A stretch of DNA of 47,862 nucleotides from Sedimentitalea xiamensis. Its GTDB lineage: Bacteria; Pseudomonadota; Alphaproteobacteria; Rhodobacterales; Rhodobacteraceae. The position numbers and the translations under genes are program-made. Positions 5,241-47,862 of this stretch are shown one piece after another. Below the pieces are notes generated by a model. It was not told where the DNA came from, did no database searches, and saw only the letters and a program-made list of their open reading frames with translations. How positions within the stretch are numbered: the stretch's first letter is position 1; each line of letters starts with the position of its first letter. The stretch is from positions 1 through 47,862 of the forward strand of contig NZ_JASNJE010000034.1 in NCBI RefSeq assembly GCF_030164465.1, read 5' to 3'.

Positions 5241-5253
5241 TCTCCGTATGCTT

Positions 5254-12639: not shown

Positions 12640-12648
12640 TCCCTGAGG

Positions 12649-13056: not shown

Positions 13057-13124
13057 ATGGTTAGGTCCATCGTTGTGGGCGTTGTGCGTGAAGTTTGGAA
13101 CCGCCCGGAACTGTCCGCAATCCA

Positions 13125-13145: not shown

Positions 13146-13295
13146 AATTGGCGATACCTGTCGAATTTCCTGACATCGCCGCGAATGTCGCAGCCCGCGC
13201 GACAAGAGGCATACCACCCGACAGGCCGGGGCGGCGCGGGCGGGTCGTCGAAGCAGAGGAGGAGCGGTTCCGGACTAGGGAGGGTGATCCGCAGT

Positions 13296-14261: not shown

Positions 14262-14389
14262 TCTTCACGTGCTGTCACAAGTGGTCACGATTCTCCGGAT
14301 AGCTCAGCGTCTGATCTGAAGTTTATCCGGGTTCGTTGTCATGTCGCCAACGCCTGATCTCAGCCGGACTAGGATGCCTCGCTCGGCTT

Positions 14390-14640: not shown

Positions 14641-14928
14641 CGCCACCGGTCGCTATTGAACCTTATGAGGGCTCGAATCTTGCCTAATACATATAATACC
14701 AATGGCTTAGGTGACAGAGAAGGTTTGATATCAGGCCCGTTCCCTCCGCCACTTACCCCCGCGAAAGCGTTCTCCCGATCCGGCTGCGGCCGGATTTCTC
14801 CGTTCTATTCAAGGGTTATGCGGGAGTGGCTGAGCACCGGCCCGTGGGGAGGAATGCTCAGAAGCGGTCTCTCAGGGGCGATATTCTCCGGACCTCTCGA
14901 CTGCGCTCAATCAGTGTAGAGCCCGTAA
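14641..14928. other. Gap with no supported gene
   Basis: Between the degenerate IS3-type end and the IS66-type fragment I see no recognisable coding sequence. An 87-codon open frame (14656-14919) has no ribosome-binding site and no family resemblance. The stretch is probably leftover insertion-sequence or rearranged DNA. Confidence 0.4.
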
Positions 14929-33570: not shown

Positions 33571-33617
33571 CTAGACTTTGGGCTAGGTGGCTTTCGGGGG
33601 TGGTCGTCGGCACAGTG
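33571..33617 (+). promoter_or_regulatory. Predicted regulator site 1 and -10 of the MoxR operon
   Basis: CTAGACTTTGGGCTAGG (33571-33587) is an imperfect inverted repeat. It agrees at 12 of 17 bases with the repeat at 45849-45865, and in both the sequence ACAGTG begins exactly 41 bases after the first base of the motif (here 33612-33617). Predicted transcript start is about 33620, which puts the repeat centre near -41. The gene starts at TTG 33669. Binding by the LuxR-type regulator encoded at 39744 is inference. Confidence 0.5.
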
Positions 33618-33668
33618 CGTTTGAGACTGTCGTGCGGCGGCGGTCAGGCCGGATTTGGGAGGAACGAT

Positions 33669-34628
33669 TTGGCCCAATTGCATGCCACCCATGCGGCGGC
33701 CAAAGTGGCGGAACTCGGGACAACGCTGTCGCAGGGGCTGATCGGCAGCGATCTTCTGATCGAACGCCTGTTGATCGGCGTGCTGACCGGCGGGCACCTG
33801 TTGATCGAGGGTGCGCCGGGACTGGCCAAGACCCGTGCGGTCAAGCTGCTCAGCGCGGGAATCACCGGGGACTTCTCGCGTATCCAGTGCACGCCCGATC
33901 TTCTGCCCTCCGACCTGACCGGAACCGATGTCTACAATCCCGAAACGGGGCTTTTCGGGTTTTCCAGGGGGCCGGTGTTTCACACGATGGTCCTCGTGGA
34001 TGAAATCAACCGCGCGCCGCCAAAGGTGCAGTCGGCGCTTCTCGAGGCCATGGCCGAACGCCAGGTCACGAGCGGCGGCGTGACCCATCCCTTGCCCGAT
34101 CCGTTTCTCGTCGTCGCCACGCAGAACTCGATCGAACACGAAGGCACCTTTCCGCTGCCCGAGGCCCAGCTTGACCGGTTCCTGCTTCATGTGCAGTTGA
34201 CGCTGCCCGATCTCGCGACGGAGCGCCGTATCCTGGACCTGGTGGAAACCGAACAGCGCGACGGACCGGCATTGTCCGATCCGATCGGCCTGGATGTGAT
34301 CCACGCGGCCAAGGCGCAGGTCGGCTCCATCCACCTGTCGCCGGCGCTGCGGGACTATATCGTCCGGATTGTCATGGCGACGCGGGGGCCGCCGTTTTCG
34401 GATGACATCGAACATGCGGTGTCGCCGCGCGGTTCGCTGTCGCTTGCGGCCGCCGCACGGGCGCGCGCCTATCTGCACGGGCGCGATCACGCGCTGCCCG
34501 AAGATGTCCAGGCGGTCGCCGCCGATGCGCTCGCCCACAGGATGTCGCTGAGCTGGAAAGCGACCTCGCAGGGTCGCACCCCACGCGACGTGATCGCGGG
34601 GATTCTGGCGGCGACAGACCCGCTCTGA
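33669..34628 (+). CDS. moxR: MoxR-type AAA ATPase
   Basis: 319 residues from a TTG start at 33669, with GGGAGGA 5 bases upstream. The frame is open further back, but no start there has a ribosome-binding site. Walker A GAPGLAKT (48-55), Walker B VLVDEINRAP, sensor VVATQN and the arginine-finger region EAQLDRF are all present. MoxR ATPases act with vWA proteins as chaperones that mature metalloenzymes, classically methanol dehydrogenase (mxaR of the mxa cluster). It heads a seven-gene overlapping operon with a DUF58 protein, two vWA proteins, a TPR protein and a BatD-like protein. Placement in a quinoprotein locus makes the methanol-dehydrogenase role the best guess. Its stop overlaps the next ATG by one base. 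Confidence 0.88.
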   Translation: MAQLHATHAAAKVAELGTTLSQGLIGSDLLIERLLIGVLTGGHLLIEGAPGLAKTRAVKLLSAGITGDFSRIQCTPDLLPSDLTGTDVYNPETGLFGFSRGPVFHTMVLVDEINRAPPKVQSALLEAMAERQVTSGGVTHPLPDPFLVVATQNSIEHEGTFPLPEAQLDRFLLHVQLTLPDLATERRILDLVETEQRDGPALSDPIGLDVIHAAKAQVGSIHLSPALRDYIVRIVMATRGPPFSDDIEHAVSPRGSLSLAAAARARAYLHGRDHALPEDVQAVAADALAHRMSLSWKATSQGRTPRDVIAGILAATDPL

Positions 34629-35506
34629 TGTCGGACGCGGCGGCTAGGGATGGCGTGACAGTCACCGCGGAGCGGCTGATCGCCCTGCGCCATCTGCTGA
34701 TCGAGGCGCAACGGGACGTGACCGTCAGCGCCTTGCCCGGCGGTTTTGCCATCGCGCGGCGCGGCAACGGCCAGGTGATCGCCGACAGCCGGCTTTATAT
34801 CCAGGGGGACGACATTCGCCATGTCGACCGCGGCGCCACCGCCAGGACCGGCGAACTGCATGTCCGGACCTTCCACGAAGAACGGGACCGGGTCTGTTTT
34901 CTCGTCGCTGATTTCAGGCCCTGCATGCTGTGGGGCCTGCGGCGCGCGCTGTGGTCGGTGGCGGCGGCGGAGGCGCTGGCGTGGCTCGGCTGGCAGACCG
35001 TCGAAACCGGCGGCCGGGTCGGTCTTCTGGCCGTGACCGGGGGGGATCGGATCCATATCCCGTCGCGCGGTCGGGTGCGCGGCATGCTGGGCGTGATCGG
35101 CGGCCTCGTGCGCGCCCATGACATCGCGATGTCCGAAACCCGGCAGGGAATGCAAAGCCCGCCGCTCGACCGCGCCCTGTCGGGGCTGGATCGTCTGGTG
35201 CCGCGCGGGTCCGAGATGATCCTGGCCAGCGCGCTGGACACCTGCGGGGACGGGTTCGCCGACCTGATCGGCGACCTGTCCCGCCGGCGCAGGACGCGGA
35301 TCATCCGTGTCGGCGACCGCGATCTCGATCGTCTGCCCGCCGGCTCCTACCCGGTCACCGGCCCGGACGGTGTCACGACGCGCATCCGCTATGGCGGGCG
35401 CATGGCCGCCGCGCCGTCGGAGCAAGAAGAGATCGACGGCTGCACCTTTCATGACCTGGATGCGGCAGCCGAACTGCCGCAGGGCTTGCAGGATCGGATT
35501 GCCTGA
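34628..35506 (+). CDS. DUF58 domain-containing protein (MxaS-like)
   Basis: 292 residues, ATG overlapping the MoxR stop (TGATG). The DUF58 block is recognisable as DDIRHVDRGATARTGELHVR, then TFHEERDRVCFLVADFRPCM. This is a vWA-related fold with a degenerate metal site. Position 2 after moxR matches mxaS in mxaRSACKL clusters and the DUF58 gene in bat operons. It probably works as an adaptor for the MoxR ATPase at the inner membrane. No signal peptide or strong membrane segment is seen in this copy. Confidence 0.8.
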   Translation: MSDAAARDGVTVTAERLIALRHLLIEAQRDVTVSALPGGFAIARRGNGQVIADSRLYIQGDDIRHVDRGATARTGELHVRTFHEERDRVCFLVADFRPCMLWGLRRALWSVAAAEALAWLGWQTVETGGRVGLLAVTGGDRIHIPSRGRVRGMLGVIGGLVRAHDIAMSETRQGMQSPPLDRALSGLDRLVPRGSEMILASALDTCGDGFADLIGDLSRRRRTRIIRVGDRDLDRLPAGSYPVTGPDGVTTRIRYGGRMAAAPSEQEEIDGCTFHDLDAAAELPQGLQDRIA

Positions 35507-35507
35507 G

Positions 35508-35882
35508 ATGGTCGACGGTGCCGTTACACATGACGATCTTATTGCTGGCCTGCATGGATTGCGATTGCCGGAAACGGCGGCTGGCGGAACGGTCGCGGAT
35601 GTCGTGGTCGCCGTGGCGCTCGGGCTGATCCTGGCGCTGGTGGTCGCGGCGCTGCTGTCGCCGGTTCTTGCGCGCGAAACCCGCCCGGACCGGGTGCCGG
35701 ACCTGGAAGACAGGCTGCGCGACCTGCGGGATCTGCCGGACGAGGACCGCGCGGTGCGGCTTCTGCACCTTCTGGCGGCGCTTGATCCCGATTCGGCGGC
35801 GGAGCTTCGCGGCAGGATCTACCGTGCCGGGGCCTTCCCAGAGAGCGCCGAACTCGAAGACAGGCTGCGCCGGCATGCCTGA
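35508..35882 (+). CDS. DUF4381-like small membrane protein
   Basis: 124 residues from ATG 35508, one base after the previous stop. A short N-terminal part with the pattern LAGLHGLRLPE precedes one membrane helix (VADVVVAVALGLILALVVAA). A charged, helical cytoplasmic tail follows (PDLEDRLRDLRDLPDEDRAV, then RLLHLLAAL). The plan 'short lead, one helix, cytoplasmic helical tail' is that of DUF4381 proteins, which sit between DUF58 and vWA genes in MoxR operons. Its end overlaps the start of the first vWA gene (35875-35882). Its job in the complex is unknown. Confidence 0.7.
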   Translation: MVDGAVTHDDLIAGLHGLRLPETAAGGTVADVVVAVALGLILALVVAALLSPVLARETRPDRVPDLEDRLRDLRDLPDEDRAVRLLHLLAALDPDSAAELRGRIYRAGAFPESAELEDRLRRHA

Positions 35883-36825
35883 GTTCGCGACCCCCTGGGC
35901 CTTCGTGCTGCTCGCGGTTCCGGTTCTGGTGACACGTCTGGCCTCTGCGCGGCGATCCACCGGCGCGGGGCTGGTGGTGCCCGCCGGCGTGAAACGCAGG
36001 ATGCTTGCCAGCAGGGCCGCGCAAGGCGGGATCGCGATCCCGCGATATGCTCTGCTCTTCGCCATCTGGGCGCTTCTGGTGATCGCCCTGGCCGGGCCGC
36101 GCCAGATCGCGCCGGTTCAGGGGTTGCCTATATCGGGGCGCGACATGATGCTTGCGCTGGATCTGTCCGGCTCGATGGTTCGGGAGGATTTCCAGCTCGG
36201 GGACCGGACCGTGACCCGGCTCGATGCGCTGAAGGAGGTGGCGGCCGGCTTTGTCCGCAATCGGGGCGGGGACCGGGTGGGGCTCGTCGTCTTCGGCTCC
36301 GATGCCTATGTCGCGGCACCGCTCACCTTCGACGTGCAATCGGTGGCGGAAACAGTCGAGACCATGGTGATCGGCATATCCGGGCGGGCCACGAACATCA
36401 GCGAGGCTCTTGGACTGACCCTGAAGCGGCTCCGGGAATCGGATGCCGAAAGCAGGGTGGTGATCCTGCTTTCGGACGGGGCCAGCAATGCGGGGGAGGC
36501 GACACCGCGCGACGTCGCAAAGCTGGCGGCAGCGATGGGGGTTCGCATTCACACGATCGCGATGGGGCCGAAGGATCTGGAAAGCCATCCGGATGAACGC
36601 GGCGTGGTCGATGCGGCCATGCTGAAGGCCGTCGCCGACCTGGGGAGCGGCGAAATGTTCCGGGTGCGCACGACCGAGGACCTGCGCGCGGTCGCCGAGG
36701 CGATCGACCGTCTGGAACCGACCGCGCGTGCGGGCTTGTCGGCGGAGATCTACCGCGACTTCTGGATCTGGCCCGCGATGCTGGCGGGACTCGGCTGCCT
36801 CTGGCTCGGATGGCGGGCCCCATGA
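35875..36825 (+). CDS. vWA domain membrane protein (BatA/MxaC-like)
   Basis: 316 residues. Two N-terminal helices (FVLLAVPVLVTRLASA; YALLFAIWALLVIALAGP), a vWA domain from about 88 with the complete MIDAS motif DLSGS (96-100), a Thr-containing second site (SGRATNIS) and the acidic third site (LLSDGASNAGE), and one C-terminal helix (FWIWPAMLAGLGCLWLGW). The vWA domain binds a divalent metal and faces the periplasm. In MoxR systems it is thought to guide cofactor or metal insertion into partner enzymes. It overlaps both neighbours by 4-8 bases, consistent with fixed stoichiometry. Confidence 0.85.
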   Translation: MPEFATPWAFVLLAVPVLVTRLASARRSTGAGLVVPAGVKRRMLASRAAQGGIAIPRYALLFAIWALLVIALAGPRQIAPVQGLPISGRDMMLALDLSGSMVREDFQLGDRTVTRLDALKEVAAGFVRNRGGDRVGLVVFGSDAYVAAPLTFDVQSVAETVETMVIGISGRATNISEALGLTLKRLRESDAESRVVILLSDGASNAGEATPRDVAKLAAAMGVRIHTIAMGPKDLESHPDERGVVDAAMLKAVADLGSGEMFRVRTTEDLRAVAEAIDRLEPTARAGLSAEIYRDFWIWPAMLAGLGCLWLGWRAP

Positions 36826-37751
36826 TCGTCCTGGCGGACGATATCGCGCTCTTGCGGCCGTTCTGGCTGGCCTCTCTGCCGCTGATCCTGGTGCTGGCCG
36901 TTCTTGTCCGCCGGCGTTACGCGCAGCTTGGAGAATGGAGCCGGCGGATCGATCCGCACCTGATGGCGGCGATGGAACGGCTGGGCCGCGTCGGGCGCGC
37001 GGGTGGCGCGGGTGCGACCCTCGCGCCGTTTCTGGCGGCGGGGCTGATCTGTCTCGGCCTGCTTGGTCCCGCCGTCAAGAGAGGTGACGGTGCGAGCTTC
37101 CGCAATCTGGACGGGGTCATCTACGTGATGGATATCTCCCGGTCGATGACGGAGGACGAAACCTGGCAGGATGTCGTGACTCTCGCGCGGTCCGGTCTGA
37201 ATGTTCTGGGGTCGCGACCGGCGGCTCTGATCGTTTATGGCGGCGACAGCTACGAAGCCGCGGCCCTGACGACGGATCACCTGCAACTGGGGCAGACCAT
37301 GTCGCTGCTGGAGGCCGGCACCATGCCCGACGCGGGCAGCCGCCCGGCGCTGGCCTTGCGGCAGGCCGCCAGTGTGCTCGCCCGTTCGGATATTCTCGCG
37401 GCGGATGTCGTGTTGTTCAGTGACGGTGCGGGCTTCGGGCCGGAAGCGGTCGCCGCGGGGCGGTCCATTGCCGATCGCGGCGCGCGTTTGATCGTGGTGC
37501 AGGTCCCGACAACGGTTTCGGGCGACATACGCCCGGATGCAGGCGCATGGAGCGCCCTTGCCAACGCGGGTCCGGCCACGTTTCTGCGGCTCGAAGACTT
37601 TGAACGGCTGACGGCCCTGCTGGCCGAGGACGCGGGAAAGCGGCTCGACCGGCAGGAGTTCGGTCTCGCCTTCTGGACGGACCATGGCCGCCTCCTGCTG
37701 ATCCCGGCCTTGCTCGCCCTGATCGGTCTCTTCCGCCGGGAGGCCACCTGA
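36822..37751 (+). CDS. vWA domain membrane protein (BatB/MxaL-like)
   Basis: 309 residues from ATG 36822, overlapping the previous gene by 4 bases. Two N-terminal helices (FWLASLPLILVLAVLV; LAPFLAAGLICLGLLGP), a vWA domain with MIDAS DISRS (104-108) in VIYVMDISRSMTEDE, then LIVYGGDSYEAAALT and VVLFSDGAGFGPEA, and one C-terminal helix (LLLIPALLALIGLF). It is related to the preceding vWA protein but has Arg in place of Gly in the MIDAS loop, as in MxaL/BatB types. The two probably form a heteromeric membrane complex driven by the MoxR ATPase. Confidence 0.85.
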   Translation: MIVLADDIALLRPFWLASLPLILVLAVLVRRRYAQLGEWSRRIDPHLMAAMERLGRVGRAGGAGATLAPFLAAGLICLGLLGPAVKRGDGASFRNLDGVIYVMDISRSMTEDETWQDVVTLARSGLNVLGSRPAALIVYGGDSYEAAALTTDHLQLGQTMSLLEAGTMPDAGSRPALALRQAASVLARSDILAADVVLFSDGAGFGPEAVAAGRSIADRGARLIVVQVPTTVSGDIRPDAGAWSALANAGPATFLRLEDFERLTALLAEDAGKRLDRQEFGLAFWTDHGRLLLIPALLALIGLFRREAT

Positions 37752-38437
37752 TGCGCCGGGTCGTCCTGATCCTCGCCCTGGCGCTTGTCGCGGGGTCCGC
37801 GCTGATCTGGGGAGGGGCGCCCTTCGGCCGCCTGGCGCTTGCGCTGGGGCTGCCCCGGATCGCCGTGCACCTGTTCAGCGATCCGGCCTGGCGTGGCGTA
37901 TCCTTCTATCGCGCCGGCGCGTTCGAAGAGGCCGCGGCCGCCTTTGCCGAAGCCGGACCCGCGGCGGCCTACAACCTCGGCAATGCGAAAGCGCAACAGG
38001 CCGCATATGCGGCGGCGCTTGAATCCTACGATCTGGCCATGGCCTATCGCGACGATCCGGCGGCGCAGGCCAATTTCGACCTGGTGCGGTCGTTCTACGC
38101 AGGCACCCGGATCGATCCCGGATCGATCGCTTTCTGGGGTCAGGACCGGATCGGGGAAACGGTAGAGGCGGAAATCGGCCGCGGCGCGGGCCGCGCCGCC
38201 GGAACCGGAGAAGACGTGACCAACACCGGCGCGACAATCGGTCTGACCGCCCTGCAAAGCCGCGAACAGAGCAGGGTACGCAAGGTGTTCGACGACTCCT
38301 TCGTGGTGGCCAGCCCACGCTGGCTGGTGACGCTCGAAGACGTTCCGGGCGCGTTTCTGGCGGCACGGCTGAACCATGAACACAAGCGCCGCAAAAAGGC
38401 GGGGCAGGGACAGCCGGAGGCCGAAGACCCATGGTGA
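37751..38437 (+). CDS. TPR-containing membrane-anchored protein (MxaK/BatC-like)
   Basis: 228 residues, ATG overlapping the previous stop by one base. An N-terminal signal anchor (VVLILALALVAGSALIWGGA) is followed by one or two TPR units around 50-115: WRGVSFYRAGAFEEAAAAFA, then AAYNLGNAKAQQAAYAAALE and SYDLAMAYRDDPAAQAN. The C-terminal half (about 125-228) has no known domain and ends in a very charged tail. TPR proteins of this kind accompany vWA proteins in bat and mxa operons as periplasmic scaffolds. The stop overlaps the next gene by 7 bases. Confidence 0.75.
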   Translation: MRRVVLILALALVAGSALIWGGAPFGRLALALGLPRIAVHLFSDPAWRGVSFYRAGAFEEAAAAFAEAGPAAAYNLGNAKAQQAAYAAALESYDLAMAYRDDPAAQANFDLVRSFYAGTRIDPGSIAFWGQDRIGETVEAEIGRGAGRAAGTGEDVTNTGATIGLTALQSREQSRVRKVFDDSFVVASPRWLVTLEDVPGAFLAARLNHEHKRRKKAGQGQPEAEDPW

Positions 38438-39684
38438 AGGGCCTGATCCTGTTCCTGGTTCTTCTGATGCCGCTCGTCGCGGAGGCGCAGACGCGAACGG
38501 TCGATCCGGGCGATCTGATGCTGAACGTGACCCTGGAGCCGATGGATTACGTCCCATTCCAAGGCGAGATGGTGCTGCTGACGATCCACGGAATCTATCG
38601 CCGCCACATCACCCTGGAAAAGCTGGAACAGCCTGATATGGCCGGGCTGAACTGGATGCAACTCGGCCAGGATCACTGGTTTGAAAGCATGCTGGACGGC
38701 AGGCCCGTCAAGAACATGCGCCGCCGCGTGGCGGTGTTCCCCGACCGGTCCGGTCAGATCGTGATCGGGCCGTTTCTGCACCATCTGACCCTTCTGGATG
38801 AAAACAACCGCTGGTTCGAACATACGATCCAGTCCGAACCCGTGAGCTTCAGGGTGGAACCGGCGCCGGCCACGGACGGGTGGTGGTTCCCGGTGCGCGG
38901 GTTGCGGGTTTCGGACAATTGGTCGAATGCGCCCGATCAGCTCGCGCCGGGCGAAGGCGTGCTGCGGATCGTCAGGGTGTCGGCCCTCGGTGCCAGCCCC
39001 GACATGCTCCCGCCGATGCCGGAACTCACCTCGCCAAGCGCGCTGATTTTCGCGCATCCCGAAAAGCGGCTGGTTGACCTGACCCCGCAAGGTCCGGAAG
39101 CGGTGGCGTTCTGGCGCTGGACGATAAAGCCGCGCAATGACACCTCGGCGATCGTCGAGCCGATCTCATTTTCCTTTTTCGACACGCGGCGGCGGGTGAT
39201 GCAGGAGGTGGTGATTTCCCCGCAGCGCGTCGCCTATGGCTCCGTTGTTCCGGTGGCGGATACGAAGCCCCCCGTGCCGGAACCGTTCGCGTTGCGGCGG
39301 GATCTGATCCTCGTCTCCGCGCTCGCCGCTTTTGCCGTTGCCGCCTTTGGCCTGATCGGTTCCGGCCGGCGATTGTCGCTGAACGCCCTGAAACAGAGGT
39401 GGTCAAGGCTGCGCTTGGTCCGGGCATTGCGCCTTGCAGGCCGGCGCGGGGATCTCGCGGGATTGCGCCGGGCAGGCCACGCGCTGGACCGGCTGTATCC
39501 CGCAGATGCGGACCGGACGGCGCTTCTGATGCAACTGGACACCCGGATATACGGTCCCGCGCCATCCAGCCTTGACGGTCCGGCTTTCGCGCGCGCCCTG
39601 AACCGGACTCTGCGATACCCAACCGCAAACCCGGACCCGCGAAAAACCGCCGGCGCGGCGGCGGAACGAAGGGCGAATTCCTGA
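38431..39684 (+). CDS. BatD-like protein
   Basis: 417 residues with a signal peptide (MVKGLILFLVLLMPLVAEAQ). A large periplasmic beta-rich region begins TRTVDPGDLMLNVTLEPMDY and reads on as VPFQGEMVLLTIHGIYRR. One membrane helix follows near residue 295 (LILVSALAAFAVAAFGLIGS), then a basic cytoplasmic tail of about 105 residues. This is the layout of BatD ('oxygen tolerance') proteins and fits the last position in the MoxR operon; MxaA of methanol clusters may be equivalent. A role in maturation of a periplasmic quinoprotein is inference from context. A gap of 59 bases separates it from the response regulator gene, so one long transcript is possible. Confidence 0.7.
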   Translation: MVKGLILFLVLLMPLVAEAQTRTVDPGDLMLNVTLEPMDYVPFQGEMVLLTIHGIYRRHITLEKLEQPDMAGLNWMQLGQDHWFESMLDGRPVKNMRRRVAVFPDRSGQIVIGPFLHHLTLLDENNRWFEHTIQSEPVSFRVEPAPATDGWWFPVRGLRVSDNWSNAPDQLAPGEGVLRIVRVSALGASPDMLPPMPELTSPSALIFAHPEKRLVDLTPQGPEAVAFWRWTIKPRNDTSAIVEPISFSFFDTRRRVMQEVVISPQRVAYGSVVPVADTKPPVPEPFALRRDLILVSALAAFAVAAFGLIGSGRRLSLNALKQRWSRLRLVRALRLAGRRGDLAGLRRAGHALDRLYPADADRTALLMQLDTRIYGPAPSSLDGPAFARALNRTLRYPTANPDPRKTAGAAAERRANS

Positions 39685-39743
39685 TCACGTTTCTTGCCAT
39701 GCAGGCCGGCTGTTTGTTAGCCTTTCGGCGGGAGGACGAAATC

Positions 39744-40469
39744 ATGGGGATTATGGACAGGAAGGACGAGTCAATCGTCATCCGGACGATGCTTGTCATC
39801 GACGATCACCCGCTTTACTGCGATGCGCTGGTATCGACCTTGTCGGAACGCTGCAATGTGCGCTGTGTTCGCTCCGCCACCACCCTGAGCGACGGACTCG
39901 CGGCGCTTGAGGATGGCGATCTGCCCGACCTGGTGTTGCTGGATCTGAACCTGCCGGATGTCACCGGGCTGAGCGGTTTCTTCCGGCTCAAGGAACGTCT
40001 GCCGGACGTGCCGGTGCTGGCGATTTCGGCGGATTCCTCGGACGAGACCATCCAGATGCTGATGGATGCCGGTGCCGTTGGTTTTGTGCCCAAGGGCGCG
40101 TCCCAGGAGGATTTCAGGATGGCGCTGCAAAAGGTCGAGGAGGGCAGCAAGTTCCTGCCGGACGGGTTTCGCCCGAGATCCAGTCCCGAGTCGGACAAGG
40201 CGGTTCCCCTGCAGGACATCGCGCAACGCATCGCCGATCTGACGCCGCAGCAGAGCCGGATCATGGGGCTGATCTGTGCGGGCAAGCCCAACAAGCAGAT
40301 CGCTTACGAGATGTCCCTGGCCGAAGCGACGGTCAAGGCGCATATCACCGCGCTTTTGCGACGGCTGGGGGTGCGCAACCGCACGCAGGCGGCGGTTCTG
40401 GTGAACAGGGTCGGGTTCGCGGCGGAACAGCGGCTGTCCGAAAAGGACGCCAAGGCCTTGCTGAGCTGA
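39744..40469 (+). CDS. LuxR/NarL-type response regulator (FlhR-like)
   Basis: 241 residues from ATG 39744 (GGGAGGA 7 bases upstream), rather than the longer frame from 39699. The receiver domain has VIDDHPLYCDAL, the phospho-acceptor Asp67 in LLDLNLPD and the conserved Lys in GFVPKGAS. The C-terminal LuxR helix-turn-helix reads LTPQQSRIMGLICAGKPNKQ, then IAYEMSLAEATVKAHITALL. The kinase partner is probably the hybrid kinase at 41643. In Paracoccus the FlhSR pair of this type controls methanol and formaldehyde oxidation genes, and the neighbours here fit. It is the best candidate to bind the inverted repeats at 33571, 43904 and 45849. Confidence 0.88.
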   Translation: MGIMDRKDESIVIRTMLVIDDHPLYCDALVSTLSERCNVRCVRSATTLSDGLAALEDGDLPDLVLLDLNLPDVTGLSGFFRLKERLPDVPVLAISADSSDETIQMLMDAGAVGFVPKGASQEDFRMALQKVEEGSKFLPDGFRPRSSPESDKAVPLQDIAQRIADLTPQQSRIMGLICAGKPNKQIAYEMSLAEATVKAHITALLRRLGVRNRTQAAVLVNRVGFAAEQRLSEKDAKALLS

Positions 40470-40476
40470 GCCGGCC

Positions 40477-41646
40477 ATGAACCTGCATCCGCCGCAGACG
40501 CTTGGAACACCCAAGCTGGTCAATTTCGGAGTGTCCTATGCGGGCGACCCGGACCTTGCGGTGCAGCAGGCGGCCGCGCAACTGGATCGGGAAAGCATCT
40601 GTTTCGTTCTGGCCTTCGTGCCCGACCGGCTGGATCACGACCGGGTCTCGCAGGCGCTGACGCGGACATTGCCCAACGCGCCCGTTTTCGGGTGCACCAC
40701 GGCCGGACAGATCACGCCCGGCGGCTACGAGAACGACACGCTTCTGCTGGTGGCTTTCCCGCGCCGGCATTTCCGCTGCGCGTCCAGCCTGATCCATCCG
40801 CTGAAACAGATGTCGATCGAGGCCACCGCGCTTCAGGCGCGAACCCTGGCCGACCGGTTCCAGAGGACCGCGAACTGGAACCGGTTCGCGGTGATCTTCG
40901 CGGATGGCCTGTCCAAGCAGGAAGATGTGCTGGTGGCCGCGCTGGACGCCGGTCTCGGGGACCTGCCGAGTTTCGGAGGATCTGCGGGGCACGGTCTGGC
41001 CTTTGACGAAACCTATGTTCTGCATGGCGGAAAATGCCATTCCAACGCGGCGCTGCTGCTGCTCGTGGAAACCGACCTGGATTTCACTGGCCTGGAATTC
41101 GACCATTTCATGCCGACCGACCGGCAACTGGTCGTCACCGACGCGCAGCCGGAAGACCGGATCGTGACCGAGATCAACGGCGCTCCGGCGGCATCGGAAT
41201 ACGCCCGCCTCGTCGGTCATGACGTTTCCGAACTGTCGCCGCGCGTCTTTGCCGAAAATCCGGTATTGGTGCGCAACCACGACACCTGGCATGTGCGGGC
41301 GATCCAGCAGGTCGTCGACGGGAACAGTCTCGCCTTCTTGTCGGCCATCGAAAACGGGCTGGTGCTGACACTGGGTCAGGGCAAGGAGATCCTCCAGACG
41401 CTGGAGGCGGAACTGTCGGTTCTGGGGCCGGAGGGGCAACGGCCCGATTTCGTGCTCGGGTTTGACTGTGTGCTGCGCCGGCTGGAGATCGAACAGAACG
41501 AGGTGATTTCCGAAGCGTCGCGGATTCTGTCTTCGCATCGGGTTCTCGGGTTCAACACCTACGGCGAACAGCATCGCGGGGTGCATATGAACCAGACCTT
41601 CGTGGGCATCGCCTTCTTTCCGCCGGGACGGACATTGCGGCCATGA
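40477..41646 (+). CDS. FIST domain sensory protein
   Basis: 389 residues. The N-terminal FIST_N domain is seen in PVFGCTTAGQITPGGYENDT, then LLLVAFPRRHF. A middle segment, FAVIFADGLSKQEDVLVAAL, leads to DLPSFGGSAGHGLAFDETYV. FIST_C follows with VLGFNTYGEQHRGVHMNQTF. FIST proteins are soluble sensors of small ligands (amino acid-like molecules were proposed) that work with kinases or chemoreceptors. It lies 7 bases after the regulator gene and overlaps the kinase gene by 4 bases. The trio regulator-FIST-kinase is probably one signalling unit in which FIST supplies the ligand-sensing part that the kinase lacks. Confidence 0.85.
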   Translation: MNLHPPQTLGTPKLVNFGVSYAGDPDLAVQQAAAQLDRESICFVLAFVPDRLDHDRVSQALTRTLPNAPVFGCTTAGQITPGGYENDTLLLVAFPRRHFRCASSLIHPLKQMSIEATALQARTLADRFQRTANWNRFAVIFADGLSKQEDVLVAALDAGLGDLPSFGGSAGHGLAFDETYVLHGGKCHSNAALLLLVETDLDFTGLEFDHFMPTDRQLVVTDAQPEDRIVTEINGAPAASEYARLVGHDVSELSPRVFAENPVLVRNHDTWHVRAIQQVVDGNSLAFLSAIENGLVLTLGQGKEILQTLEAELSVLGPEGQRPDFVLGFDCVLRRLEIEQNEVISEASRILSSHRVLGFNTYGEQHRGVHMNQTFVGIAFFPPGRTLRP

Positions 41647-43889
41647 TCGATCCGGACGAGCCGCTGGACGTTCAGGTGCGCCGCCAGGCCCGGATCATCG
41701 ACGCGCTGGTGCAACGTGCCAACCAGCAACATGAACTGGGCGGGTCCGCCTATTCCCTGTTCCAATCCGCGATCCGGCTGCAAAGCAAGGTGTCCGAAAA
41801 GACCCGCGATCTCGAAGACGCGCTCACCACGCTCGGCCGCGCGAGCAACCAGCTCGAAACCTCCGAAGAGGAACGGGCGCAGACCCAGCGCACCCTGCAG
41901 GACGCGCTGGACACGATGGAAGGCGGGTTCGCGCTCTTCGCTGAAGGACGGCTGCGGGTCTTCAACGATTTTTTCAAGTTCCTGATCCCCGATATCGAGG
42001 AGTCGGTGCAGGAAGGGCTGGAGTTCTCGGCCTATGTGGAGGCGCTGGCCAAGAGCGGCAGCATCCGCCCGCGCGACGGATTCAACCGGTTCGGATTGCG
42101 CCGCGCGATCCTGAAGCTTGGCGAAGGACCGGCGGCGCCATTCGTCTTTGGCCTGAAGAACGACCGCTGGTTCGTCATCACGTCGCGTCGGACCCGGTCG
42201 GACAACACGGTGATCCTGCAAACGGAGATCACCGCGGTCGTGCGCGGCAACCGGCTCGAAAAGAACCGGCTGATCGACGAGCAGGAACATTTTCTGCAAG
42301 CGGCCTTCGATCACATGCCCCAGGGGGTCGCGACCTTTTCCGCCGAAGGCACGCTGCTGATCAACAACGCCCAGTTCGGGGCGCTGCTGACCCTGCCGAT
42401 CCAGCTGACCGCGGTGGGAACGTCATTCGGGCAGATCATCGAATATCTCAAGGCCCAGGCCTTCGTCGGCGAGCTGCCGCATGACGATTTCGCCAGCCTG
42501 ATCCGGTTCCTGCGCCGCGCGGGCAATCTGCGCCAGCGCGTGCGCCATATCAGCGACCGGATTCTGGACATCGACATGCACCCCTTGCCCGACGGCGGCT
42601 GCATCATCAACGTGATGGACGTGACGGTCGAATTCCAGACCACGGAGATGCTCGAGATGCGGGTGATGGCGCGCACCTCCGAACTGACCGAGGCCAACGT
42701 GCAGCTGCGCCGCCAGTATGACGAACAGGCCAGGGTCGAAGAGGACCTGCGGGTCGCCAAAGCCGAAGTCGAGGCGGCGATGTCGTCCAAGACCCGGTTC
42801 TTTGCCGCCGCAAGCCACGATCTGCTCCAGCCGATCAATGCCGCGAAGCTGCTGATCTCATCGCTCACGGACGGCTGCGGGCAGGGGGAAACACGGGAAA
42901 CCGTGCGCCGGCTGGACAGTTCCTTCCGGTCGATCGAAGACCTGTTGCGCGCATTGCTCGATATCGCGAGGCTGGAGTCCACTGACACCAGCCTGGTGGT
43001 GACGTCGTTTTCCCTGGATGAGGTGCTGCGCGGCGTTGTCGAGGACCTCGGGCAGCTTGCCGTCGAAAAGGGGCTTGATCTGCGGGTGGTCAAGTCCGGG
43101 CTCTGGGTCAGAAGCGACCAGAGATACCTGGCGCGGTCAGTGCAGAATTTCGTCGACAATGCCATTCGCTACACAGAAAAGGGCCGCATCCTGGTCGGGT
43201 GCCGCCGGCATGGTGACACCGTGACGCTCGAAGTCTGGGACACCGGCATCGGCATTTCCCGCAGCGACCAGAAGCGGATATTCAAGGAATTCACTCGTGT
43301 GGGGGCATCGAGCCGGAACAGCCAGGGCATGGGGTTGGGCCTGTCGATCGTGGAACGTGCCTGCCGGCTCCTGGGCCATCCCGTCTCGGTCCGCTCCAAA
43401 CCCGGCGTCGGGTCGGTCTTTTCCCTGACTTTGCCCATCGTTGAACCGAATCCGACCGATGCCGTCACCGTGCGGTCCATTGCTGCGCACGCGGATCAGG
43501 ACATGGACCTGATCATCCTGCTGATCGAGAACGATCCGGGCGTCGCCTATGCGATGACGCAGAAACTGGAAAGCTGGGGCGCGAGCGTTCTGGCGGCGAA
43601 AAGCACGCAGGAGGCGCTGGATCTGGTGCAGGACATCGGCATGGCGCCCGATATCATTCTGGCCGACTTCCATCTGAACGGAGAGGACACCGGCGTGCAG
43701 GCCATCCTGTCGGTGCGCGACGCCCTGAAATCGCCGATCCCGGCGATCATGATCACGGCCAACCATGAAGACCACGTGAAGGATGCAGGACTGGCGAACC
43801 GGTTCTCGGTGCTGACCAAGCCCGTGAACCTGTCGCGCCTGCGGTCCCTGATCGACTGGAAGACCCGCACGGGGAGCCTTTCGGCCTGA
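41643..43889 (+). CDS. Hybrid sensor histidine kinase (FlhS-like)
   Basis: 748 residues and no membrane helices, so cytoplasmic. An N-terminal coiled coil (about 20-90) leads to two PAS-like regions (about 85-200 and 215-325). A second coiled coil comes next, then the dimerisation domain with His392 in FFAAASHDLLQPINAAKLLI, the N box FVDNAIRYTEKG, G1 DTGIGIS and G2 GMGLGLSIVERA. A C-terminal receiver has LLIENDPGVAYAM and Asp675 in ILADFHLNGEDTG. The 'ASHDL.QP' H-box is that of NahK/ErcS-like kinases. It overlaps the FIST gene by 4 bases, so it is probably partnered by FIST and the LuxR-type regulator. By family and neighbourhood it resembles FlhS or RfdS of formaldehyde/methanol control. Confidence 0.88.
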   Translation: MIDPDEPLDVQVRRQARIIDALVQRANQQHELGGSAYSLFQSAIRLQSKVSEKTRDLEDALTTLGRASNQLETSEEERAQTQRTLQDALDTMEGGFALFAEGRLRVFNDFFKFLIPDIEESVQEGLEFSAYVEALAKSGSIRPRDGFNRFGLRRAILKLGEGPAAPFVFGLKNDRWFVITSRRTRSDNTVILQTEITAVVRGNRLEKNRLIDEQEHFLQAAFDHMPQGVATFSAEGTLLINNAQFGALLTLPIQLTAVGTSFGQIIEYLKAQAFVGELPHDDFASLIRFLRRAGNLRQRVRHISDRILDIDMHPLPDGGCIINVMDVTVEFQTTEMLEMRVMARTSELTEANVQLRRQYDEQARVEEDLRVAKAEVEAAMSSKTRFFAAASHDLLQPINAAKLLISSLTDGCGQGETRETVRRLDSSFRSIEDLLRALLDIARLESTDTSLVVTSFSLDEVLRGVVEDLGQLAVEKGLDLRVVKSGLWVRSDQRYLARSVQNFVDNAIRYTEKGRILVGCRRHGDTVTLEVWDTGIGISRSDQKRIFKEFTRVGASSRNSQGMGLGLSIVERACRLLGHPVSVRSKPGVGSVFSLTLPIVEPNPTDAVTVRSIAAHADQDMDLIILLIENDPGVAYAMTQKLESWGASVLAAKSTQEALDLVQDIGMAPDIILADFHLNGEDTGVQAILSVRDALKSPIPAIMITANHEDHVKDAGLANRFSVLTKPVNLSRLRSLIDWKTRTGSLSA

Positions 43890-43903
43890 ACCTTCGGCGC
43901 CTG

Positions 43904-43947
43904 CGCCGACCAAAGTATCCGGTGACGCGGTTCCGGTTTCGGATAGT
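43904..43947 (+). promoter_or_regulatory. Predicted regulator site 2 and -10
   Basis: CGCCGACCAAAGTATCC (43904-43920) carries one good half-site. Read on the complement it is ATACTTTGG, close to ATACTTAGG of 45851-45859. GATAGT (43942-43947) begins 38 bases after the motif start, exactly as GATACA does at the 45849 site. It lies 27-70 bases before the secreted protein gene at 43974. A small hairpin (CGGCGC-CT-GCGCCG, 43896-43909) overlaps it. This is weaker than the other two sites. Confidence 0.35.
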
Positions 43948-43973
43948 CTTTGAACAGACGGGGGAGACTGAAC

Positions 43974-44624
43974 ATGCGAAAGAGTTTGATGGCCATCGGA
44001 CTGGCCCTGTGGCTGGCGCAGCCGGCGGCCGCGGAACCGGCCTATGACCTGATCTTCAAGCAGGGGACATTGTCGGACCTGGGTATGCAGTCGGTTCTGG
44101 TCTATGACCGGCAGGTGGAGATCGCCGCCGATCTGGACCGCGCCCGGCGGAGCACCGGGACGGTGGATATGGCATTTGCGACCGACGACATGGCGCAACT
44201 GACCTTCAGGCAGGATGACAAGCACCAGTCGCTTGGACGGTTTCCCGCCTCCGTCGGAAATCCCATCGTCATGTATTTCGTCGAAACCGTTCTGCGCGAC
44301 GTTGCCCATGAGGCCGGCGGCAGCCCGTTCTATATCCGCACCAAGATCAAGGATTCCCTGGTTCAGCCCGCCGAGATCGAATCCGTGACCCTGCGTTTTG
44401 GCGATCGGGACGTGGCCGGACAGAAGATCACCCTGCATCCGTTTCGCGATGACGAGAACCGCGATCGCATGAAAGGGTATGGCGACCTGTCGCTGAGCTT
44501 CACCGTGTCAGAGGACTATCCCGGCTGGTATGGCGCGCTGGTCGCCGATGTGCCGGGCGAAACGGAGACGCAACCGATCTATTCCAACAGGCTGATCCTG
44601 ACGGGAGAGGAGGTCCGGCAATGA
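43974..44624 (+). CDS. Unknown secreted protein of the quinoprotein locus
   Basis: 216 residues from ATG 43974, with GGGGGAG about 7 bases upstream. Signal peptide MRKSLMAIGLALWLAQPAAA. The mature part is mostly beta-strand by pattern and has no cysteine, no membrane helix and no motif I recognise. Landmarks are FKQGTLSDLGMQSVLVYDRQ, VEIAADLDRARRSTG, YFVETVLRDVAHEAGGSPFY and LHPFRDDENRDRMKGYGD. It overlaps the next gene by 4 bases, so the two act together. Being bracketed by the kinase operon and the SoxYZ-like carrier/relay hydrolase pair, it probably serves the periplasmic quinoprotein dehydrogenase system. Function unknown. Confidence 0.7.
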   Translation: MRKSLMAIGLALWLAQPAAAEPAYDLIFKQGTLSDLGMQSVLVYDRQVEIAADLDRARRSTGTVDMAFATDDMAQLTFRQDDKHQSLGRFPASVGNPIVMYFVETVLRDVAHEAGGSPFYIRTKIKDSLVQPAEIESVTLRFGDRDVAGQKITLHPFRDDENRDRMKGYGDLSLSFTVSEDYPGWYGALVADVPGETETQPIYSNRLILTGEEVRQ

Positions 44625-44971
44625 TCCGCTTCGCCATGGTCCTGGCCGTGGGCCTTACCGCCGGTCAGGCCGGTGCGCAATCCGTACAGGAACGTCTGAA
44701 CGACTACCCCACTGCCGCGCGCGCTGATTATGTGTTCGGGTGCATGGCGGTCAACGGTCAGACGCGCACCGCATTGCTGCAATGTTCCTGTTCCATCGAC
44801 ATGATCGCATCGATCCTACCCTACGAACAATATGTCGAAGCGGAAACCGTGCTGTCGATGCAGCAGGTCGGGGGCGAACGCATGTCGATCTTCCGGACCG
44901 CGGCCATGGCAAAGGCGCTGGTTTCGGACCTGCGCCGGGCACAGGCCGAAGCCGAGATCCGGTGTTTCTGA
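44621..44971 (+). CDS. Unknown small secreted four-cysteine protein
   Basis: 116 residues. ATGA overlap with the previous gene. Signal peptide MIRFAMVLAVGLTAGQAGAQ. The mature protein of about 96 residues has exactly four cysteines (41, 55, 57, 115) in YVFGCMAVNG, LLQCSCSIDMI and the terminal RCF, so two disulphides or a metal site are possible. There is no CxxCH, so it is not a c-type cytochrome. It is mainly helical by pattern (YVEAETVLSMQQVGGERMSI, then FRTAAMAKALVSDLRRAQAE). It ends 9 bases before the convergent SoxYZ-like gene. I do not know the family; the context is quinoprotein-dependent alcohol oxidation. Confidence 0.7.
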   Translation: MIRFAMVLAVGLTAGQAGAQSVQERLNDYPTAARADYVFGCMAVNGQTRTALLQCSCSIDMIASILPYEQYVEAETVLSMQQVGGERMSIFRTAAMAKALVSDLRRAQAEAEIRCF

Positions 44972-44980
44972 AATCCGCCG

Positions 44981-45793
44981 TCAGCTTTCGCCGGTCTTGG
45001 GAAGAACCCGTTCGAACAGGTTTCCTTCGGTGTCATGCGCCCGGACCGTCAGGGCAGGCGCGCCGTTGTCGGTATAGGTGAAGCGGAACACCGGGTTTTC
45101 GCTCACCGAAATGCCGCCTTCCATCGAAAACAGCAGATCGTCGCCCTGGTAGACCTGAAGTTCGTCGATGAAATGCGCGCCGACGAAAAGTTGCGTGATC
45201 TGATCGCGTTGCAGGCCGGAGTAATTCGGATGGCGGATCATGATCTGCGCGTCGCGGCGCTGGCCCGACATGTTTTCGGCCGTGTCGAAATGCTTCAGGC
45301 GCATCTGGCCCATCGTCGCGAGCGCTGCGACCGGATCCTTCGTGGCCGGGGCCGAACAGCCGCCCGAGGCCTTGACATAGCGGCCGCTCATGTAGGTGCC
45401 CGCATCGGTTTCGGCCAGCACGCGGATGTTGGAATACTGGTTCACCCGGACCCGCAGTTCGAAGTTCAGGGGCATCATCAACTCACCGAAGACGAAATCC
45501 GCCGCCATGGGCGCGGGGTTTTCGTCGATGATGACCTGTGCCGTCCTGATCGGAACCGCCGGATCGGACTGGGCGAGGAGCAGCGGAACCGTCGCGGCAT
45601 CGTTCGCGCGGTAGGGCGCGGTCACGTCCAGCACATGAGACCCGTCCTTCAAGATGTTCTCATCGCTGACGAAATCGCCCTTCAATTCCGCCCAGGTGGG
45701 GCCATCCGCCAATGGGTTGTCACGGGGTGGTTCATCGGCCATCGCCCCATGTGCGACAACAGCCAGAGCGGATGCAAGGAAGCGCATTCTCAT
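44981..45793 (-). CDS. Quinoprotein dehydrogenase-associated SoxYZ-like carrier
   Basis: 270 residues from ATG 45793, with GGGAG 7 bases upstream; the open frame continues back but without a ribosome-binding site. Signal peptide ending AMAD near residue 20. The N-terminal SoxY-like half ends in a GGC motif (VKASGGCSAPA, Cys146), equivalent to the sulphur-carrying cysteine of SoxY. The C-terminal SoxZ-like half reads AQIMIRHPNYSGLQRDQITQ, ISVSENPVFRFTYTDNGAPA and LTVRAHDTEGNLFE. The SoxY-SoxZ fusion is the mark of the carrier encoded beside PQQ-dependent dehydrogenases. It is divergent from the relay zinc hydrolase gene, with a shared inverted repeat between. What the cysteine carries is not known. 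Confidence 0.85.
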   Translation of the reverse strand: MRMRFLASALAVVAHGAMADEPPRDNPLADGPTWAELKGDFVSDENILKDGSHVLDVTAPYRANDAATVPLLLAQSDPAVPIRTAQVIIDENPAPMAADFVFGELMMPLNFELRVRVNQYSNIRVLAETDAGTYMSGRYVKASGGCSAPATKDPVAALATMGQMRLKHFDTAENMSGQRRDAQIMIRHPNYSGLQRDQITQLFVGAHFIDELQVYQGDDLLFSMEGGISVSENPVFRFTYTDNGAPALTVRAHDTEGNLFERVLPKTGES

Positions 45794-45821
45794 CTGTGAT
45801 CTCCCGAAACCGTTCCGCAGA

Positions 45822-45895
45822 CTACCATGCCGGGTGGGGGCGGGAAACGTATACTTAGGGGTATGCGCCGATTCGCACGTGGATTTGATACAGTG
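45822..45895. promoter_or_regulatory. Predicted divergent promoter with regulator site 3
   Basis: CGTATACT-TAGG-GGTATGCG (45848-45867) is an imperfect inverted repeat (6 of 8 pairs). On the + strand GATACAGTG begins at 45887, 38 bases after motif base 45849, so the centre would sit near -41.5 of a start at about 45899. On the complement TGGTAG (45827-45822) lies at the mirrored distance, for the SoxYZ-like gene. Both transcription units could be switched on by one LuxR-type regulator dimer. Confidence 0.55.
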
Positions 45896-45920: not shown

Positions 45921-46967
45921 ATGTTCGAACTCATCGTAACCCTTTGCCTTCTGTCGGCGCCGGAAACCTGCCGCGACGTTCTGCTGCCCGGTTTCGAAAG
46001 GGCCTCTGCCGCCGCTTGTGCCGATGCGTTCGCCCGCCGGCCCGTGGATGTCGCGGCGTTGTTTCCGGACAGCCACGTCCAGGGGGAACCGCGCTGCCAG
46101 CCGTCGGGTCCGGCCGCCGAGGTTCAGGACCTTTCCAACGGGGTCTTCGTGTTCAAGGGCGCCATCGACGAGGCCACGCCGCAAAACCTGGGCGGCGTGT
46201 CGAACGCGGGCTTCGTCGTGGGGGGCGACAGCGTCGCCGTGATCGACAGCGGGGGATCGCGGCGGATGGGCGAAGAGTTGTGGCGGTCGGTGCGCGCGAA
46301 GACCGACCTGCCGGTCAGCCATGTGATCCTGACCCATATGCACCCGGATCATGTGCTCGGCACGTCGGTCTTCGCCGAAGCCGGGGCGCGCGTGGTCGGG
46401 CATGAAAAACTGGGTCCGGCGCTGGCGGATCGCCGAGACAGCTATATGGCCGGGTTCGGCCGCCTGATCGGAGACGCGCAGTTCATCGGCACGAAGATCG
46501 TTCTGCCTGATCTGCCGGTGCCCGGCCGGCTGGAAATCGACCTGGGCGGGCGTGTCCTGGATCTTCGGTCTTGGCCGACGGCCCACACCGGCAACGATCT
46601 CACGGTCCTTGATCCGGCCGGCGGAGTCCTGTTCACGGGCGACCTTGTGTTTGACGACCATGCCCCGGCGCTGGACGGATCGGTGCGGGGCTGGATCTCG
46701 GTCCTGTCGGAAATGAAAATGCTGGAGATCGGCCGCATCGTCCCCGGCCATGGCGGACCAGTTCTGAACTGGCCATCGGGCGCGCAGGATCTGGACCGCT
46801 ATCTGGAAGTGCTGGCCGCCGACACCCGTGCCGCCATCGGCCGTGGCGACCCGCTGAGCACGGCGGCCAGCAATATTGCGGCCTCCGAGGCGGAGAACTG
46901 GCAATTGTTCGATCTCTTCAACGCTCGCAACGCGACCGTCGCCTACACGGAACTGGAATGGGAATGA
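45921..46967 (+). CDS. Quinoprotein relay system zinc metallohydrolase 2
   Basis: 348 residues. The N-terminal domain (about 1-65) opens MFELIVTLCLLSAPETCRDV with several cysteines, typical of this branch. The metallo-beta-lactamase fold follows with the zinc motif HMHPDH (139-144) and the later ligands His in TAHTGND, Asp in LFTGDLVFDDH and His in VPGHGGP. It is the SoxH-like hydrolase that accompanies PQQ dehydrogenases and SoxYZ-like carriers and probably acts on the group bound to the carrier cysteine. It is transcribed divergently from the carrier gene and ends 4 bases before the next, convergent gene. Confidence 0.87.
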   Translation: MFELIVTLCLLSAPETCRDVLLPGFERASAAACADAFARRPVDVAALFPDSHVQGEPRCQPSGPAAEVQDLSNGVFVFKGAIDEATPQNLGGVSNAGFVVGGDSVAVIDSGGSRRMGEELWRSVRAKTDLPVSHVILTHMHPDHVLGTSVFAEAGARVVGHEKLGPALADRRDSYMAGFGRLIGDAQFIGTKIVLPDLPVPGRLEIDLGGRVLDLRSWPTAHTGNDLTVLDPAGGVLFTGDLVFDDHAPALDGSVRGWISVLSEMKMLEIGRIVPGHGGPVLNWPSGAQDLDRYLEVLAADTRAAIGRGDPLSTAASNIAASEAENWQLFDLFNARNATVAYTELEWE

Positions 46968-46971: not shown

Positions 46972-47586
46972 TCATTCCGGGACGTGGCCCAGCAGCATCT
47001 GGGCGATGGCATAGGCGCGTTTTTCCAGCAGAACCGGGGTTTCGCAGACATAGGTCAGAGACTGCGCCCGGTCCCGGAAAATGCGTTCGTCCCAGTCCAG
47101 CTTTTCTTCCAGTTCATCGACCTTGTCGTAGTCGGGGGCGTCCGCCTTCATCAGGTCCGACATGCGGGCCCGGCTGCCGTCGATTTCTTCGGATAGGGCG
47201 ATCTGCTTGAGCGAATAACGTTCGATCCCGGAAATGATCGCCGACCGGTCCGCCTGACCCCCGTCGAACACCGCCCTGAAAATCCTGCCAAGGTCATCGG
47301 CGGTCAGGCCGGGGTGATCCGCCACGAAGGTGTCCACGAGGACGGCGGCCTTCTCCAGCGACACCCGTCGCAGAGCCAGCGTTTCGACCAGGATGTCGGC
47401 GTCACCGGCGATTGCGTCCGGCAGCGCGCCGTCAGGGACCGGGAGCGGCCACATCAGGCCCAGGGACAGGCTTTCCACCTTGCGCTGCACGCAGGGCCAG
47501 GTCGGGTCCGAAAAATCCGCGCTCAACCCGGCTCCCGGTATCGATACCGCGGCCAGGGCCGCGAGCAGGCGCCTTGAAATATGCAT
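46972..47586 (-). CDS. Unknown secreted protein of the quinoprotein locus
   Basis: 204 residues, GGAGG 9 bases before the ATG, and a signal peptide (MHISRRLLAALAAVSIPGAG then LSAD). Two cysteines in the mature part (WPCVQRKVESLSLGLMWPLP; SLTYVCETPVLLEKRAYAIA) may form one disulphide. It is strongly helical: a segment around 145-175 (DYDKVDELEEKLDWDERIF) looks like a coiled coil. No known domain is seen. It is divergent from the formaldehyde dehydrogenase gene and convergent with the relay hydrolase. A periplasmic accessory role in PQQ-dependent oxidation is inference from position only. Confidence 0.7.
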   Translation of the reverse strand: MHISRRLLAALAAVSIPGAGLSADFSDPTWPCVQRKVESLSLGLMWPLPVPDGALPDAIAGDADILVETLALRRVSLEKAAVLVDTFVADHPGLTADDLGRIFRAVFDGGQADRSAIISGIERYSLKQIALSEEIDGSRARMSDLMKADAPDYDKVDELEEKLDWDERIFRDRAQSLTYVCETPVLLEKRAYAIAQMLLGHVPE

Positions 47587-47743
47587 GGTCCGTGTCCTCC
47601 GCCGACTACTCTAATAGTTGAACGGTTCCTGTCCATGTCCGCCAACACACACCTATGTCTTAATTGTGCCGGCAGGCCGCTGGCATGTAGCCTTTTTGCC
47701 AAGGGGCATTGAGACCCAGGTTCAATTTGCGGGGGAGAAGACC

Positions 47744-47862
47744 ATGCGCACACGCGCCGCGGTTGCGATGGAGGCGGGGAAGCCTCTGGAGATCATGGAT
47801 GTGAACCTCGAGGGTCCGCGGGCGGGCGAGGTACTGGTTGAAATCAAGGCGACGGGCCTGTG
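47744..47862 (+). CDS. frmA: S-(hydroxymethyl)glutathione dehydrogenase, N-terminal part (cut by window edge)
   Basis: ATG 47744 with GGGGGAG 8 bases upstream. The visible 39 codons read MRTRAAVAMEAGKPLEIMDV, then NLEGPRAGEVLVEIKATGL, and stop at the edge just before the expected catalytic zinc cysteine (next codon TG.). This is the conserved start of class III alcohol dehydrogenase, which oxidises the glutathione adduct of formaldehyde with NAD (flhA in Paracoccus methylotrophy literature). It fits the locus: methanol oxidation in the periplasm yields formaldehyde, removed by this enzyme in the cytoplasm. The 157-base upstream gap is shared with the divergent unknown gene and has a weak palindrome at 47605-47618. 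Confidence 0.9.
   Translation, partial: MRTRAAVAMEAGKPLEIMDVNLEGPRAGEVLVEIKATGL

Follow-up and report, generated by a model that had tools for sequence, protein, structure and literature searches.

We analyzed a 47,862-nucleotide stretch of DNA from Sedimentitalea xiamensis (NCBI RefSeq assembly GCF_030164465.1, contig NZ_JASNJE010000034.1; hereafter the window), in which a short inverted-repeat box recurs ahead of several genes of methanol/formaldehyde oxidation, as it does in related marine bacteria, and is probably the operator of a locally encoded response regulator, RR1. A run of genes begins at 32687 with a phosphoenolpyruvate-mutase-like gene and continues through a moxR/DUF58/VWA operon, led by the AAA_3 ATPase gene moxR (33669..34628, + strand), to the RR1 cassette and a pair of genes for secreted-looking proteins. 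RR1 (39699..40469, +), a response regulator with a LuxR-type helix-turn-helix (HTH) region and the predicted binder of the boxes, is followed by genes for a NosP-like FIST-domain protein (40477..41646, +) and a NahK/ErcS'-like hybrid histidine kinase (41643..43889, +). These two score 376.8 and 410.9 bits against the NosP (NF041558) and NahK (NF041831) models and do not reach the respective cut-offs of 450 and 1500 bits. The original prediction, made from the letters of the window, had the regulator start at 39744, which is an internal ATG of RR1. The secreted-looking pair, sec1 (43974..44624, +) and sec2 (44621..44971, +), gave no family match. Next come a soxYZ-like carrier gene on the opposite strand (44981..45793, -; TIGR04557, 260.9 bits, cut-off 140) and a soxH-like zinc hydrolase gene (45921..46967, +; TIGR04559, 373 bits, cut-off 280). 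A 204-residue secreted-looking protein, also with no family match, is encoded at 46972-47586 (-), divergently from flhA, the gene for glutathione-dependent formaldehyde dehydrogenase, whose first 39 codons (47744..47862, +) precede its truncation by the contig end.

The gene order RR-nosP-kinase-sec1-sec2-soxYZ-soxH recurs across many Rhodobacteraceae loci, including those of Yoonia, Roseobacter, Roseivivax, and Salipiger. The comparison loci comprised the regions of 20 other genomes with TIGR04559 (of the 149 family genomes, 21 exceed its cut-off) and 80 named loci out of one scan. The recurring block also takes in flhA, of which a full-length relative (in locus L103) passes TIGR02818 with 620.3 bits (cut-off 543.95), and in a subset of loci the moxR operon lies upstream. 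The 204-residue protein is retained in most block loci at about 41-69% identity, and sec2 is found beside soxYZ/soxH well outside Rhodobacteraceae (e.g., in Mesorhizobium and Azospirillum loci). At another contig end of the source genome (L098), fghA (TIGR02821) sits with a pyrroloquinoline quinone (PQQ) dehydrogenase gene (TIGR03075) that is probably xoxF, judged by this position.

The original prediction started from two 17-mers, CTAGACTTTGGGCTAGG at 33571 and GTATACTTAGGGGTATG at 45849, whose letters and coordinates we verified. They are identical at 12/17 bases, ACAGTG begins 41 bases after the motif start at both sites (33612 and 45890), GATACA at 45887 and GATAGT at 43942 share the same offset, and the complement reads TGGTAG from 45827. 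The exact search pattern proposed from them, TANACTTNGGGNTA, occurs at these two places only in the 4.75 Mb genome, and at 10 places with at most one mismatch. As evidence, however, we reject this pairwise likeness, because chance yields many such pairs: 12/17 agreement is reached by 167 of 710,976 17-mer pairs from seven 200-base upstream regions of the window, and TANACTTNGGGNTA with up to two mismatches has 3 matches in the window against 1.71 expected. Pairwise likeness alone is not significant; it is conservation in orthologous promoters that makes the motif significant.

Unseeded searches of orthologous promoters recover a conserved box. We searched for a 19-base motif gene by gene, with the best of 8 dinucleotide shuffles as the control; protein matches beginning past residue 40 were left out of the promoter sets, as was L103 (same contig as L080). 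The motif score was 447.6 for sec1 (shuffled 111.3; 33 sequences), 423.5 for flhA (104.4; 31 sequences), 192.4 for soxH (105.3; 37 sequences), and 107.2 for moxR (72.7; 9 sequences). The box is present in 24/33 sec1 and 27/31 flhA promoters, where box tables left out sequences below 15 bits (sec1, flhA) or 10 bits (soxH, moxR) and opposite-strand matches for sec1, flhA, and moxR. The four sets are variants of one core, GAC-N4-GTC or its complement, with one half often relaxed. The consensus cores are GAC AAAA GTC for sec1 (GACaAAaGTc), CAC CAAG GTC for flhA, and GAC CTTG GGC for moxR, with a looser form for soxH; the same-genus copy of the moxR box reads GAGACTTTGGGCTA. The check that the original prediction proposed, conservation of the motif in the same promoters of related genomes, thus confirms the box, for which TANACTTNGGGNTA is too narrow. 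The site at 43904, ahead of sec1, had been taken for a weaker one and is instead, with that of flhA, among the two best conserved. Ahead of the regulator gene itself, the motif found (127.3 vs 106.5, 24 sequences) is unlike the box and seemingly represents upstream coding sequence, and we rejected it.

Since shuffles ignore relatedness, we also repeated the search on the real sequences with the boxes masked. Masking drops the motif score from 482 to 110 for sec1, from 443 to 136 for flhA, and from 116 to 76 for moxR. In the sec1 and flhA alignments, the box and the -35 hold 1.1-1.5 bits per column and the spacer and upstream flank 0.1-0.25 bits, partly an effect of aligning on the box. When a sec1+flhA matrix is built with the window and its genus mate excluded, the flhA box of the window comes first and its sec1 box second among 47,845 positions, and with a matrix from all four sets the window boxes rank 1 (sec1), 2 (flhA), 9 (moxR), and 18 (soxH). 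A pattern drawn from the source genome itself, TNNGACCNNGGTCNNA, is too loose and therefore unfit for a genome-wide list: with one mismatch it is found at 99 places on each strand, and the reversed control at 82.

Each box in the window is followed by a -10-like hexamer at a nearly constant distance. We counted from the first base of the core (as 0) to a hexamer that had two or more of T1, A2, and T6. Ahead of moxR, the core GAC TTTG GGC (33574..33583, +), which lies within CTAGACTTTGGGCTAGG, has CACAGT (33611..33616, +) 37 past the core start. Ahead of sec1, the core GAC CAAA GTA (43908..43917, +) is followed by the -35-like GTGACG (43922..43927, +) and, at 36, by TAGTCT (43944..43949, +). 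The core between soxYZ and soxH, TAC TTAG GGG (complement CCC CTAA GTA; 45852..45861), is shared in both directions: TACAGT (45889..45894, +) lies at 37 toward soxH, and TAGTCT (45819..45824, -) at 37 toward soxYZ, read along the minus strand, where TG stands at 45827-45826. Ahead of flhA and outside the range covered by the original prediction, the core CAC CTAT GTC (47650..47659, +) is followed by the -35-like TTGTGC (47664..47669, +) and, at 38, by TAGCCT (47688..47693, +). The flhA box may serve the divergent gene for the 204-residue protein too. The conserved -10 frame at the two original sites (33611-33616 and 45889-45894) thus starts one base before the ACAGTG that had been proposed.

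These distances are shared by the orthologous promoters. The -10 stands at +36 in 19/24 sec1 promoters (all three letters in 19), at +38 in 20/27 flhA promoters (all three in 7), at +37 in 7/8 moxR promoters (all three in 4), and at +37 in 11/26 soxH promoters (all three in 3). On the soxYZ side of the shared box it is at +37 in 52% of 29, frequently in the form TGGYA, which resembles an extended -10, so that the divergent box has a -10 at +37 on either side. Four bases separate the core end from the -35-like hexamer in sec1 and flhA. With the core start 36-38 ahead of the -10 and a transcript start expected near +49, the box centre falls near -44. The original prediction had a class II activator centred near -41.5; a centre near -44 fits an activator set against the -35, with activation itself a prediction. 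The regulon proposed there is partly supported: one inverted repeat at a constant distance from the -10 does join moxR, the secreted pair, and soxYZ/soxH, but the prediction missed both the flhA target and the facing of the divergent box toward soxYZ.

The boxes resemble a known operator. In Pseudomonas fluorescens, the CrbR 'ACTU' motif occupies -52 to -36 of the acs start and is required for CrbR activation (PMC5715377, Sepulveda and Lupas); published examples are CTAGACTTACGTCCAAT and TACGACTAAAGTCTAAA (PMC5715377). Like our boxes, the sites of this system (CrbS/CrbR = MxtR/ErdR) are imperfect inverted repeats of about 17 bases with the core GAC-N4-GTC, as in CTAGACTTACGTCCAAT, just upstream of a sigma-70 type promoter, and are served by a LuxR-type response regulator. 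Judged by sequence, the boxes agree with the ACTU motif in core, length, and position. There are also differences: window boxes often have one half relaxed, unlike ACTU; CrbR targets are acetate genes in Gammaproteobacteria; and CrbS carries an SLC5 domain, in contrast to the PAS and receiver domains and the NosP-like partner of the window's kinase. When the published ACTU sites are used as a matrix, the window moxR site comes 4th, while the sec1, soxH, and conserved flhA sites are not in its top 25. This matrix misses most boxes, and thus the match to ACTU is at the level of the family rather than of exact sequence. Its highest match in the window is at 1038. We rejected another match, at 47710, as a candidate flhA operator: 17 bases separate its end from the start codon, and the conserved flhA box is at 47650.

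Occurrence of the box follows one clade of regulators. In a tree of 56 regulator sequences (69 before identical or contained ones were removed), the RR1 clade (29 rows) stands apart from the rest with support of 100/98. A sec1 or flhA box is found in 28/36 block genomes, and 28/28 of these carry an RR1-clade regulator, five of which were recovered by searching the genomes beyond the fetched stretch (L086, L107, L108, L111, L117). No RR1-clade regulator was found in the box-less block genomes (0/8): in four the regulators belong elsewhere in the tree, three gave no match at 1e-30, and the match of the last (L082, G083), at 46%, was not placed in the tree. G047, an RR1-clade genome left out of the motif search, also has the flhA box. 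The original assignment of the motif to the window's regulator is borne out to this extent, although a paralogous regulator may bind too.

Such a paralogue lies elsewhere in the source genome. A second cassette, RR2-NosP2-kinase2, is directly behind a PQQ alcohol dehydrogenase gene (L097 = contig 22 of the source assembly G000, 4314-14698), and two near-perfect ACTU sites (5050 and 5090 in L097) lie between the gene for a PedF-type cytochrome c-550 and a divergent PQQ-ABC binding-protein gene. Among the 30 upstream regions of this PQQ-ABC gene examined (43 genomes had a match), 25 exceed the best shuffled score of 10.6. The best NCBIfam model for both RR1 and RR2 is ErdR (NF041830), far below its cut-off of 390 bits, and their HTH regions are closely alike.

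The motif is thus best explained, in our judgment probably correctly, as an ACTU-like operator of the FlhR-class response regulator RR1, predicted to drive flhA, the secreted pair, soxYZ/soxH, and in some genomes moxR. Computation establishes that the box exists, that it keeps a set distance from the -10, and that it occurs together with the RR1 clade; we infer that RR1 binds it, that the effect is activation rather than repression, and that formaldehyde or another product of alcohol oxidation is the signal. The neighbouring hybrid kinase would phosphorylate RR1, perhaps tuned by the NosP-like protein, and an RR1 dimer would then bind the inverted repeat about 44 bases ahead of the transcript start, beside the -35 region. 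Bound RR1 would help RNA polymerase start at flhA, perhaps reading on into fghA, and likewise at the secreted pair and, off one shared operator, at soxYZ and soxH. In some genomes it would also act at the moxR operon.

Several observations weigh against this explanation. The soxH box is weak: masking lowers the score only from 190 to 180, and the motif left in the set, AttaTGcCA, reads as the complement of TGGYAT at the soxYZ -10. The moxR box draws on 9 sequences, one of which (L113) is a distant homologue whose match lies elsewhere, and the sec1+flhA matrix places the window's moxR and soxH boxes 39th and 43rd. The co-occurrence of box and RR1 tracks one phylogeny, L120 has RR1 yet no sec1 box, and RR1 scores no better than RR2 against ErdR (155.3 and 155.2 bits). 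No conserved box was found at the PQQ dehydrogenase in the xoxF position, where 3/25 upstream regions (L089, L114, L117) exceed 9.2, the random 95% score, and do so at differing positions. Copies of flhA outside the block mostly lack the box in their upstream regions (88/90 used; L223 and L224 were dropped as no start was found, G133 was counted twice, and some genomes have two copies). Regulator-positive and -negative genomes hardly differ at these copies when RR2-type regulators are counted as positive: p=0.012 (150 bases) and 0.063 (300) with the sec1 matrix, and p=0.49 and 0.27 with the ACTU matrix. The RR1/RR2 clade split would explain this poor contrast, a split made after the result was known. 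Furthermore, high-scoring sites lie at -135 of flhA in G041, which has no regulator match at 1e-30, and at -113 in G097, whose placed regulator is in the RR2 clade.

The last case bears on the strongest rival, namely that both paralogues, or mainly RR2 beside its PQQ dehydrogenase on contig 22, bind the boxes and RR1 is not the sole regulator. The similar HTH regions, the ACTU boxes at the PQQ-ABC gene of the RR2 cluster, and the flhA box of G097 all favor it, as does Rhodobacter sphaeroides, in which two systems act on adhI (PMC4776306). We nevertheless consider it unlikely: boxes within the block accompany RR1-clade regulators, and no box stands at sec1 or flhA in L113, where the regulator matched best is in the RR2 clade. 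Rather less likely still is that RR1 represses at the boxes and is released by the signal. One of the two R. sphaeroides systems, RfdRS, is thought to repress adhI (PMC4776306), but the box here lies upstream of and against the -35, spaced as in the acs promoter that CrbR activates, and not over the -10 or the start. Chance likeness of the two original sequences agrees with the near-expected matches in the window and the many 12/17 pairs, yet it is very improbable as an account of the motif. The frequency of the box in the promoters of sec1 and flhA, far in excess of the shuffled and masked controls and with fixed -10 spacing, already contradicts chance for those two genes; the case against it is weaker for the soxH site alone.

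The preferred reading, RR1 as an FlhR-class activator, has parallels among described formaldehyde regulators. FlhRS of Paracoccus denitrificans and AfdRS/RfdRS of Rhodobacter sphaeroides each comprise a regulator and a kinase with an open reading frame (ORF) between them and control flhA or adhI (PMC4776306), and FlhRS is activated by formaldehyde (PMC8879981). The order regulator, ORF, kinase is that of the RR1 cassette, flhA is boxed here, and R. sphaeroides, like the source genome, has two such systems, AfdRS and RfdRS, both acting on adhI (PMC4776306). The likeness is one of gene order as described; the passages seen do not call the ORF a FIST protein and give no operator sequence. By analogy with these systems, the signal would likely be formaldehyde or a product akin to it, and formaldehyde would be a likelier one than methanol or lanthanide. 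The regulators recovered from Paracoccus do not belong to the RR1 clade, although two Paracoccus loci (L127, L162), with regulators likewise outside it, carry GACCAAAGGCC at the box position upstream of sec1. In Pseudomonas putida, the ped cluster likewise ties SoxYZ-like and SoxH-like genes, NosP-NahK, and ErdR to PQQ alcohol dehydrogenases, in another gene order and, in the passages seen, with no such box for these genes (PMC12997753). Among open-licence papers, judged by title or abstract opening, none was found that describes this box ahead of flhA, soxYZ/soxH, or moxR in Rhodobacteraceae; the original FlhR, AfdR, and adhI-promoter papers may have an operator.

Taken more widely, one genome might run two alcohol/formaldehyde circuits side by side and partly insulated from each other, both built of a regulator-NosP-kinase set with its own version of ACTU. 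RR2 would use paired symmetric boxes (PedF-type cytochrome c-550/PQQ-ABC), and RR1 single half-relaxed boxes (flhA, the secreted pair, soxYZ/soxH, moxR). We hold this only tentatively, at somewhat less than even odds. If true, the secreted pair would share this regulation and belong, so far unrecognized, to quinoprotein maturation or to the SoxYZ relay. For Roseobacter-type bacteria, the boxes provide a concrete candidate operator of an FlhR-class regulator together with a list of its predicted targets, and would place the poorly understood SoxYZ-like carrier, the zinc hydrolase, and the unnamed secreted pair in a single regulon with formaldehyde dehydrogenase. They also suggest that the CrbR ACTU box is a member of a wider regulator family's sites.

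The contigs of the window and of nine relatives (L073, L085, L102, L104, L105, L106, L110, L111, L113) stop in or just past flhA. Full-length flhA was not found at 1e-150 in the source assembly nor in the G106 and G111 assemblies. A second, near-identical copy of flhA that disrupts assembly is a possible cause of these breaks.

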